Under the pieces are notes generated by a model. The model had not been told where the DNA came from and searched no databases. It was given only the letters and a program-made list of their open reading frames with translations. The translations under genes and the position numbers were made by a program. A stretch of 64,000 bases of DNA from a virus: positions 31,274 through 95,273 of IMG/VR virus record IMGVR_UViG_3300038429_000195. One strand, 5' to 3'. This document shows, piece by piece, positions 40,094-59,493 of this stretch; position 1 is the stretch's first letter, and each line of letters begins with the position of its first letter.

Positions 40094-40169
40094 TGGTGGA
40101 GCCTAGGGGATTCGAACCCCTGACCTTCTCAATGCCATTGAGACGCTCTACCAATTGAGCTAAGACCCC
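40094..40169 (-). tRNA. tRNA-Ala(GGC)
   Basis: Loop ATGGCAT, anticodon GGC (GCC/GCU), G3-U70, A73, CCA encoded. Confidence 0.93.
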
Positions 40170-40187
40170 AATAAAATTTATGACACA

Positions 40188-40457
40188 GACATAGCCGCGG
40201 TTCTGTTTTATCCTTACATTTCTCTAAGCGTGCTATTACCCAGACTTTATAACGAGCAGCACTACTCTTGTCCCTATTTGCACTTGCATCTAATTTGTGG
40301 TATTAACGAATCATACCGATTAACCCCTTTCAAGGCTCACTACCAGTTTTTCTCTGGCTACGGCTCGGTTGCAACATTTACTGATTCTCCCAATCATCTG
40401 CTGTGATGCCGCGAACTTCCTCTAACACATTTAGGTTAGCGTAAGGTCACTTATGTC
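40188..40457 (-). ncRNA. rnpB: RNase P RNA (bacterial type)
   Basis: On the minus strand the 270-nt segment carries the universally conserved RNase P core in order. CR-I is GAGGAAGTTCGCGGC (40408-40422; E. coli GAGGAAAGTCCGGGC). Next come the GAAAGGGG and CGGTATGA elements (cf. GAAAGGGTGCGGTAAGA), then GCAAGTGCAAATAGGG (about 40272-40287; cf. GCAAGGCCAAATAGGG). The GGGTAA L15 element, which binds tRNA CCA, is at about 40232-40241. CR-IV TTAGAGAAATG is at 40217-40227 and CR-V ACAGAACCGCGGCTA at 40192-40206. The E. coli pair CCGGG/CCCGG is replaced by CGCGG/CCGCG, a compensated change. GACATA/TATGTC closes P1. It is shorter than E. coli M1 (377 nt), so peripheral helices are reduced. It would process the many tRNA precursors here. 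Confidence 0.9.
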
Positions 40458-40489
40458 ACAAAAAAATTTCAAAGAACTCTTTATCTATA

Positions 40490-40518
40490 AATATAAATCA
40501 AATACATAAAAATGTCAA
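40490..40518 (-). promoter_or_regulatory. Promoter of the RNase P RNA/tRNA unit
   Basis: TTGACA-N17-TATATT, with the -10 continuing as TATATTTATAG so that it also contains the late TATTTAT core. It lies about 33 nt upstream of the RNase P RNA and downstream of a terminator. Confidence 0.75.
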
Positions 40519-40521
40519 GCC

Positions 40522-40562
40522 TTAAAACAAAAATCGTGTCAATAACAAAATTTTATTGACAC
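40522..40562 (-). terminator. Rho-independent terminator after tRNA-Leu(GAG)
   Basis: GTGTCAATAA pairs with TTATTGACAC, followed on the minus strand by GATTTTTGTTTT. It separates the upstream tRNA unit from the RNase P RNA unit. Confidence 0.8.
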
Positions 40563-40579
40563 AATTCACTATATAAAAT

Positions 40580-40668
40580 TGGTGCTACCAGAGGGATTCG
40601 AACCCACAAGTCCAATTACGGACCCCAACTTCTCAGGCTGGTCTGTATGCCAATTCCAGCATGGTAGC
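40580..40668 (-). tRNA. tRNA-Leu(GAG)
   Basis: Class II with long variable arm, acceptor GCTACCA/TGGTAGC, loop CTGAGAA, anticodon GAG (CUC/CUU), A73, CCA encoded. Confidence 0.93.
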
Positions 40669-54480: not shown

Positions 54481-54555
54481 TGGTGGGTTCGCTGAGACTT
54501 GAACTCAGTTCCAGCACTTTAAGAGAGTGAGCTTCACCATCAAAGTTTCGAACCC
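54481..54555 (-). tRNA. tRNA-Lys(CTT)
   Basis: Acceptor GGGTTCG/CGAACCC, stem CACT/AGTG, loop CTCTTAA, anticodon CTT (AAG), A73, CCA encoded. Confidence 0.9.
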
Positions 54556-54736: not shown

Positions 54737-54814
54737 TGGTGCTCCGGGTGGGATTCGAACCCACTGTCATCAGATTAAAAGTCTGATGCTTATCCAGACT
54801 TAAGCTTCCGAAGC
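54737..54814 (-). tRNA. tRNA-Lys(TTT), copy 2
   Basis: Acceptor GCTTCGG/CCGGAGC, stem TCAGA/TCTGA, loop CTTTTAA, anticodon TTT, A73, CCA encoded. Confidence 0.93.
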
Positions 54815-59429: not shown

Positions 59430-59493
59430 AGATTCAGACTGGATTAGAGCCAGCGTTTGTCATTTGACTGTTCTACCACTAAACTACTGAATC
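59430..59493 (-). pseudogene. tRNA with truncated anticodon arm, no CCA
   Basis: 64 nt. Acceptor GATTCAG/CTGAATC, a normal D arm and T arm (GCTGG-CTCTAAT-CCAGT), but the anticodon arm is reduced to GTC-AAAT-GAC. The only tRNA-like element here without an encoded CCA. Confidence 0.6.

Follow-up and report, generated by a model that had tools for sequence, protein, structure and literature searches.

The window analysed here is 64 kb of a linear IMG/VR record of 95,273 bases, and among its tRNA genes it carries, on the minus strand, a gene for an RNase P RNA (Table 1). The identity of the RNA rests on homology: cmscan returned a full-length match to the model of class A RNase P RNA (RF00010, RNaseP_bact_a), covering model positions 1-367 of 367 with a score of 44.1 bits and an E value of 1.3e-12 for a scan of 408 bases (40171-40578), or of 7.1e-14 when the searched space was the whole 95-kb record. 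The Rfam gathering cut-off for RF00010 is 100 bits and the window RNA, at 44.1 bits, is therefore missed by a standard scan; indeed, the gathering-threshold Rfam scan of the whole window returned 40 matches to tRNA but none to RNase P. As the gathering score is unmet, the RNA is not filed as a curated member of class A. Its single-sequence folding energy is ordinary, with an MFE z of -1.10 and 30 of 200 shuffles folding equally well.

Table 1. Features of the RNase P RNA gene and its surroundings, in positions of the window.
Feature	Position	Strand	Basis
tRNA-Leu(gag), upstream neighbour	40580..40668	minus	ARAGORN
Terminator-like hairpin after tRNA-Leu, upstream of promoter-like site	40531..40567	minus	15 pairs (3 G-C), T tail
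Sigma-70-like promoter TTGACA-17-TATATT, 31 nt upstream of RNA match	40490..40518	minus	11/12 matching
Leader motif GTTCTTTGA, just upstream of P1	40469..40477	minus	motif search
RNase P RNA gene, about 282 nt	40177..40458	minus	RF00010 match at 40458..40177, 44.1 bits; model R1, 188 bits
P1 5' strand UGACAUA	40452..40458	minus	pairs with 40181-40187, 7/7 pairs; sequence reading
P2 5' strand CCUUAC	40441..40446	minus	pairs with 40212-40217; two-sided changes in 6/7 pairs in relatives
P3 hairpin CUAAC...GUUAG	40422..40439	minus	two-sided changes in 3/6 pairs in relatives
P4 5' strand GU-U-CGCGG, unpaired U at 40414	40409..40416	minus	pairs with 40194-40200
P5 5' strand CAUC	40405..40408	minus	pairs with 40287-40290; two-sided changes in 4/4 pairs in relatives
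P6 pseudoknot 5' strand CAGC	40400..40403	minus	pairs with GCUG in loop L17; permutation test
Between P5 strands: P6 5' strand, P7 region, reduced specificity domain	40291..40404	minus	114 nt
Outer stem GAAUCA/UGAUUC, specificity stretch	40382-40387 + 40308-40313	minus	sequence reading
P5 3' strand GAUG	40287..40290	minus	covariation in relatives
P15 5' strand GGAC	40270..40273	minus	pairs with 40242-40245; sequence reading
P17 GAG/CUC with loop L17	40254..40267	minus	sequence reading; crude permutation test without signal
P6 pseudoknot 3' strand GCUG, in L17	40257..40260	minus	permutation test
P15 3' strand GUCU (40242-40245) and L15 GGU (40238-40240)	40238..40245	minus	P15 permutation test
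P2 3' strand GUAAGG	40212..40217	minus	covariation in relatives
P4 3' strand CCGCGGC	40194..40200	minus	covariation; P4 helix survey
P1 3' strand UGUGUCA	40181..40187	minus	sequence reading
tRNA-Ala(ggc), 7 nt downstream of RNA	40094..40169	minus	ARAGORN

An initial annotation of the locus had claimed an RNase P RNA inside a tRNA array, with the conserved blocks in order, a closed P1 and a compensated CGCGG/CCGCG change, in a region where nearly all tRNAs encode CCA, and these claims held. The five quoted blocks (5/5) occur in order on the minus strand, which had been left unstated; P1 closes through UGACAUA/UGUGUCA with 7 pairs; and CGCGG and CCGCG pair and, with their outer neighbours, form 7/7 pairs around one unpaired U in P4. 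The gene does lie between tRNA-Leu(gag) and tRNA-Ala(ggc), and CCA ends 40/40 of the ARAGORN tRNAs in the window. The check proposed there, a covariance-model search, gave the class A match above (E 1.3e-12), and the outcome named as refuting the claim, a fold that cannot form P4 and P2/P3, did not occur, since P4, P2 and P3 form and covary. The family in large phages, the reduced specificity domain and the RnpA genes of two huge phages, all described below, go beyond that annotation.

P4 is the most conserved helix of RNase P RNA, and the GGU of L15 is the expected pairing partner of the tRNA CCA; in the window RNA, GGGU directly follows the P15 pairing of GGAC with GUCU. A P15 test at fixed offsets began one base early, and the window scored 3/4 pairs in it. 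P18 was not seen in the window RNA as read from the RF00010 alignment.

We then consider the surroundings of the gene. A promoter layout placed like that of the window, GCTTGAC...TATAGT, is found in three relatives (L014, L018 and L225); promoter-like sites as such are not enriched in the region (11 vs 9.0 in shuffles, sd 3.0). The leader motif GTTCTTTGA, which we take to be boxA-like as it resembles the boxA antitermination element, occurs once in the window, where 0.78 occurrences are expected by chance, and it also precedes the RNA in L014, L018, L088, L225 and L242. The spacing from the RNA to the downstream tRNA is 2-7 nt in 7/7 cases measured (the window, L014, L018, L088, L129, L131 and L225), and in the phage genome LR756508 a tRNA-Ser starts 3 nt past the RNA match. 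Because the RNA adjoins a tRNA, an RNase P cut at the tRNA 5' end would be predicted to form the 3' end of the RNA as well. No tRNA directly behind the RNA was found in several relatives (L027, L130, L216, L228, L236 and L242), and in LR756501 a terminator-like hairpin lies downstream of the RNA. Concerning the tRNA calls themselves, window matches at 59430-59493, 54484-54555 and 54740-54814 were given by Rfam and not by ARAGORN, the 64-nt one being possibly an odd or decayed tRNA, and ARAGORN reports further tRNAs that are absent from the Rfam matches.

The locus resides in a phage genome. Within the window are genes for a baseplate wedge protein and for PhoH, and a Gp23 capsid gene lies on the same record outside the window. 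A sequence from a record of 365,299 bases (L034) is 100% identical to the window across its 7,915 bases, and this 365-kb record carries Gp23 and a PF03237 terminase together with the same RNA and flanks. The identical 282-nt RNA is present in five records, the window's included, and a divergent relative (L014, from a 73-kb record with a terminase) has a 268-nt RNA at the same syntenic place with a similar tRNA array.

To what extent the structure is under selection was read from an alignment of 11 RNAs (A2), in which 90.5% of the cells of P2, P3, P4 and P5 are paired and 19 of the 24 pairs of these helices show two-sided changes. The covariation score of P2-P5 was 0.572, compared with 0.180 for shuffled and at most 0.108 for slid controls, and P4 alone was 100% paired with two-sided changes in 6/7 pairs. 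The rows of A2 were mostly fetched by motif, and L286 and L002 are shifted in P2/P3 within it; the covariation test itself is free of choices of the P4 strand or of the U anchor. Since relatives show two-sided pair changes in P2-P5, a chance match is excluded.

Permutation of pairing partners among 21 RNAs, with strands defined by anchors and L018 omitted as a near copy of L088, gave self-pairing of 130 for P2 (permuted mean 89.5), 146 for P4 (128.4), 79 for P5 (49.8), 83 for P15 (65.5) and 124 for P6 (97.0), each reached by 0 of 20000 permutations. P17 was without signal in this test (84 vs 82.2, reached by 7098/20000). Such tests are inflated by the relatedness of the RNAs, and anchor-based pairing has exceptions, namely P2 in L216 (3/7) and L296 (4/7) and P5 in L284 (0/4). 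Taken together, the data show that the structure is under selection, with P2-P5 covarying and P6 and P15 also supported, and that the window locus is a genuine RNase P RNA gene kept by selection in a jumbo phage; its expression and activity are inferred.

A survey of P4 in 26 RNAs found all 7 pairs in 23 and a mismatch in 3. The inner part of the helix occurs as 12 different helices, 3 with a mismatch and 2 with a G-U pair, examples being CGCGG, CGGGG, CAGGG, CGCGA, CGACG, CGACA and CUAGA with their complements. In this survey the 3' strand was the best-pairing of motif-anchored candidates and the 5' anchor required the unpaired U. The U is present in 26/26 RNAs, a count partly built into the procedure, as both the anchor and several of the fetch patterns required it; nine RNAs (LR756511, LR745206, LR756502, LR756508, L130, L131, L228, L242 and L286) entered by routes independent of the U.

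The specificity domain is reduced in many of the RNAs: the gap between the P5 strands is only 41-61 nt in 11 of the 24 phage RNAs measured (LR756502 excluded), which, from sequence alone, we read as a single hairpin replacing the domain. Two near-identical RNAs, L018:1481-1839 and L088:7124-7378, differ in the length of the specificity hairpin, L018 having about 104 nt more, by insertion or deletion of a module. L010:1079-1309 and L058:2513-2743 have a long insert between the AAUG motif and the P4 3' strand.

A covariance model, R1, was built from 11 RNAs; L215 and L216 were excluded from the seed (L215 having been misaligned at first), and P15 and P17 were omitted because A2 misaligns them. 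The window is among the seeds, so its R1 score of 188 bits is not independent evidence. At E<=1e-7, R1 finds a match in 35 of 65 sources, the latter mostly picked by motif. In this count the seeds match by construction, the RNA in L012, L034, L081 and L121 is that of the window, and L284 and L290 duplicate places in L220 and L213. Most relatives were gathered by scanning viral contigs for exact patterns, which biases the sample to the motifs searched for. E. coli rnpB scores only 12.7 bits against R1 (E 0.39).

Among 12 public phage records searched whole, R1 matches five, all of them huge phages of 484-735 kb with Gp23 (5/5): LR756501 (735,411 bases, 190 bits) and LR756511 (595,163 bases, 128 bits), which are both R1 seeds, LR745206 (634,780 bases, 97.8 bits), LR756502 (642,428 bases, 83.4 bits) and LR756508 (484,177 bases, 65.6 bits). 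LR756501, LR756511 and LR745206 were picked for this search due to prior blastn matches of their RNA, LR756508 via a baseplate protein, and LR756502 and LR756504 via accession alone. With stricter filters, R1 found no match in LR756504 (636 kb), XacN1, Atu_ph07, Bacillus phage G, CBB, Mel-JY01 or immuto, nor was there an R1 match in SCTP-2. In 18 contig fragments, selected for a related baseplate protein, no match reached E<=0.001 (best 0.0026). The phage RNase P RNA is thus a family found in large phages, and it is not universal among them. The 167-kb record of L216, which has a phage RNase P RNA, also carries a tmRNA call (L216:6578-6966, minus strand, tag ANDDTFEVRLAA).

The family is poorly visible to other searches. 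Rfam at E<=0.1 recovers 1/5 of the huge-phage loci, that of LR756502, and as archaeal RNase P, the match to RF00373 being weak (32.4 bits, cut-off 84). LR756501 was matched by blastn with L027 as query, at 67% identity over 67% of the query (E 1e-6). Of four weak blastn matches in the phage collection, three records were searched whole and gave no RF00010 match at E<=0.01; among these weak matches LR756501 and LR756511 were later confirmed by structure and R1, and LR756503 by blastn. For MT838799, also a weak blastn match, R1 gave none. An exact-pattern scan of a genome collection of 84,980 species returned 17 places with 0 full R1 matches (best 18.8 bits, partial).

Several candidates were set aside. 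The match in Microcystis phage MaAM05 has fabI, engB and mtgA alongside, resembling a bacterial chromosome, and that in Acinetobacter phage MD-2021a has coaD and an integrase, with the same resemblance. The former (MW495066.1, 112823-117868, L300) is an RNase P-like blastn match that suggests that a 274-kb record labelled as phage contains bacterial chromosome. Canonical RNase P RNAs in IMG/VR records, which exceed the cut-off in 7/7 records searched whole, were not counted as phage. One record of 463 kb (G029, IMGVR_UViG_3300033405_000001) has a canonical RNase P RNA at 305811-306131 (208 bits); matches to Gp23, PF03237 and RnpA are all absent from it, and whether it is phage, plasmid or bacterium is undecided.

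The protein subunit, RnpA (PF00825), was sought in 42 records. It was found in 0 of 6 records of the first set, which includes the window's record and the 365-kb record, in 2 of 10 of the second set, LR745206 and LR756502, and in 0 of 26 of the third. The LR745206 protein is a 115-aa ORF scoring 49.2 bits and that of LR756502 a 122-aa ORF scoring 52.4 bits, the PF00825 cut-off being 22.3; solved RnpA chains were matched with E of 0.0012 and 3.1e-6, respectively. The two proteins are 50% identical and have in common SSKKFKRAVDRNR-KRLMRE, which we take to be the RNR motif of RnpA. These two huge phages (635 and 642 kb) thus appear to encode both RNase P subunits, RNA and RnpA. The neighbours of the RnpA gene include ClpP and an RNA ligase in LR745206, and SpoVR and a PolyA_pol-head match below cut-off in LR756502. 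Also near the gene in LR745206 (LR745206.1, 72000-82000; L327:5455-8103, minus strand) is a TonB-dependent receptor-like protein with plug and CarbopepD_reg_2 domains, an unusual phage cargo; this neighbour may point to a Bacteroidota host for LR745206. As the window's and the 365-kb records are without RnpA, host RnpA is assumed for the window's phage.

In light of these data, we consider it likely that the RNA is a functional RNase P RNA of the phage and acts in the maturation of phage tRNAs, in this phage together with the host RnpA; its expression and activity are inferred. Transcription of the RNA would start at a promoter of its own, located between the tRNA-Leu and tRNA-Ala genes, and the RNase P cut of the adjoining pre-tRNA-Ala would free the 3' end of the RNA too. 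It would fold to the catalytic domain (P1-P6, P15 and P17) with a reduced specificity domain and without P18, and the GGU of L15 would pair with the CCA encoded by the phage tRNAs. The RNA would bind host RnpA, two other huge phages supplying their own, and the 5' leaders of phage pre-tRNAs would be removed during infection, catalysis and substrate both being inferred. The catalytic domain of the E. coli RNA alone can cut, a P6-like contact is likely to be important, and P18 is dispensable once the specificity domain is gone (PMC5839562); the retention of P6 in the phage RNAs and the apparent absence of P18 from the window RNA are in line with this. As for the initial annotation, its proposal that the phage brings its own RNase P RNA is supported, the location in a phage genome being shown and catalysis inferred. 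Use of the host RnpA, which it also proposed, fits the lack of RnpA in the window's and the 365-kb records and remains an inference, and its suggestions of escape from host control and of processing of aberrant tRNAs are borne out by no result.

A first alternative is that the RNA is kept as a decoy: weak in catalysis, it would mimic RNase P RNA, tie up host RnpA or pre-tRNAs and in this way limit host RNase P and the host tRNA supply. In its favour, the window's and the 365-kb records lack RnpA, so that the RNA would share the host protein, many relatives have a reduced specificity domain, and the catalytic helix P4 is of unusual sequence. However, the catalytic features are kept, with P4 paired in 11/11 aligned RNAs, P6 and P15 pairing, and GGU in L15 of the window RNA; the gene lies inside a tRNA array whose ARAGORN tRNAs all end in CCA (40/40); and two huge phages carry their own RnpA, which a sponge of host RnpA would not need. 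We consider the decoy unlikely.

It is also improbable, in our view, that this is a specialised RNase P acting mainly on other phage RNAs (mRNA or small RNA) or on poor substrates of host RNase P. A reduced specificity domain should, by inference, loosen the dependence on the tRNA T-arm, and no tRNA is present on the fetched stretch around some of the RNAs, e.g. L228, L236, L314, L315 and L316. Against this, the RNA lies within the tRNA array in the window's lineage, and the CCA expected to pair with L15 is encoded in the window tRNAs. A functionless captured fragment or pseudogene of host rnpB, or a misassembly that joined bacterial DNA to a virus contig, could account for the low Rfam score (44.1, cut-off 100) and the missing parts of the specificity domain, but is very unlikely given the two-sided changes in 19/24 pairs, the occurrence of the identical RNA in five records (the 365-kb one among them encodes capsid and terminase), the span of the family across large phages, and the 0 full R1 matches among 17 places in the genome collection of 84,980 species.

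Returning to a working phage RNase P RNA, a bolder form of this reading may be put forward, that large tailed phages hold a separate viral RNase P lineage. In it P4 would have drifted with compensation, the specificity domain would have become a hairpin, some lineages would release their own 3' end via the adjacent tRNA, and at least two genomes over 630 kb, with RnpA, would have a complete, cell-independent RNase P holoenzyme. As a joint claim we lean towards it, by a narrow margin.

A phage-borne RNase P, with both subunits in two genomes, would transfer another step in supplying translation from the cell to the virus. The natural series of specificity-domain loss offers a test of the minimal RNA for pre-tRNA cleavage, and the natural compensated variants of P4 a test of the tolerance of the active site. 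Current RNA cut-offs hide such genes, as the standard scan misses the window RNA. RNase P is the classic cellular ribozyme, and its early study included work on how the host enzyme processes the tRNA precursors of phage T4 (PMC11143913). Within the literature searched, outside which most subscription papers lie, no earlier report of a phage-encoded RNase P RNA or RnpA was found by title or start of abstract. RNase P, ribonuclease P and rnpB have 0 occurrences in the main text of Al-Shayeb 2020 (PMC7162821), and RNase P has 0 in the main texts of Iyer 2021 and of the 2025 Jug phage preprint.

In comparison with known systems, the window RNA resembles bacterial class A RNase P RNA (RF00010; E. 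coli M1 RNA) in P1-P5, in the unpaired U of P4, in the P6 pseudoknot to L17, in P15 with GGU and in the full-length model match. It differs from class A in being phage-encoded, below the curated cut-off and without a visible P18, and from E. coli rnpB in the sequence after GAGGAA (GUUCGCGG in the window, AGUCCGGG in E. coli) and in having 114 nt instead of 164 between the P5 strands. The phage RNAs with small specificity domains are like the minimal RNase P RNA of Pyrobaculum (type P, PMC4919922), where the catalytic domain is kept and the specificity domain nearly lost; unlike that archaeal, cellular RNA, they retain P6, the GGU of L15 and one hairpin where the specificity domain would be. 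Nor do they belong to an archaeal cellular lineage, the records being Gp23 phage records, two of them with bacterial-type RnpA (PF00825). The divergent RNase P RNAs described from CPR bacteria (Lui 2021, PMC8172020) also miss helices, and some were found only below Rfam cut-offs, but they are bacterial, and the Rfam scan of putative megaphages in the same study yielded only tRNAs and a tmRNA. Huge phages are described to carry tRNAs, tRNA synthetases and a CCA-adding enzyme (Al-Shayeb 2020, PMC7162821), and ours are the same kind of phage with the same theme of a phage-borne tRNA supply. The theta ribozymes of gut phages, linked to tRNA-based recoding (PMC10879173), are likewise phage ribozymes tied to phage tRNAs, although by the title they are HDV-like, unlike the phage RNase P RNA. 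The ribozyme family is a classic one; relative to the literature searched, what is new is that phages carry it, that its architecture is reduced and that RnpA is phage-encoded as well in two genomes.
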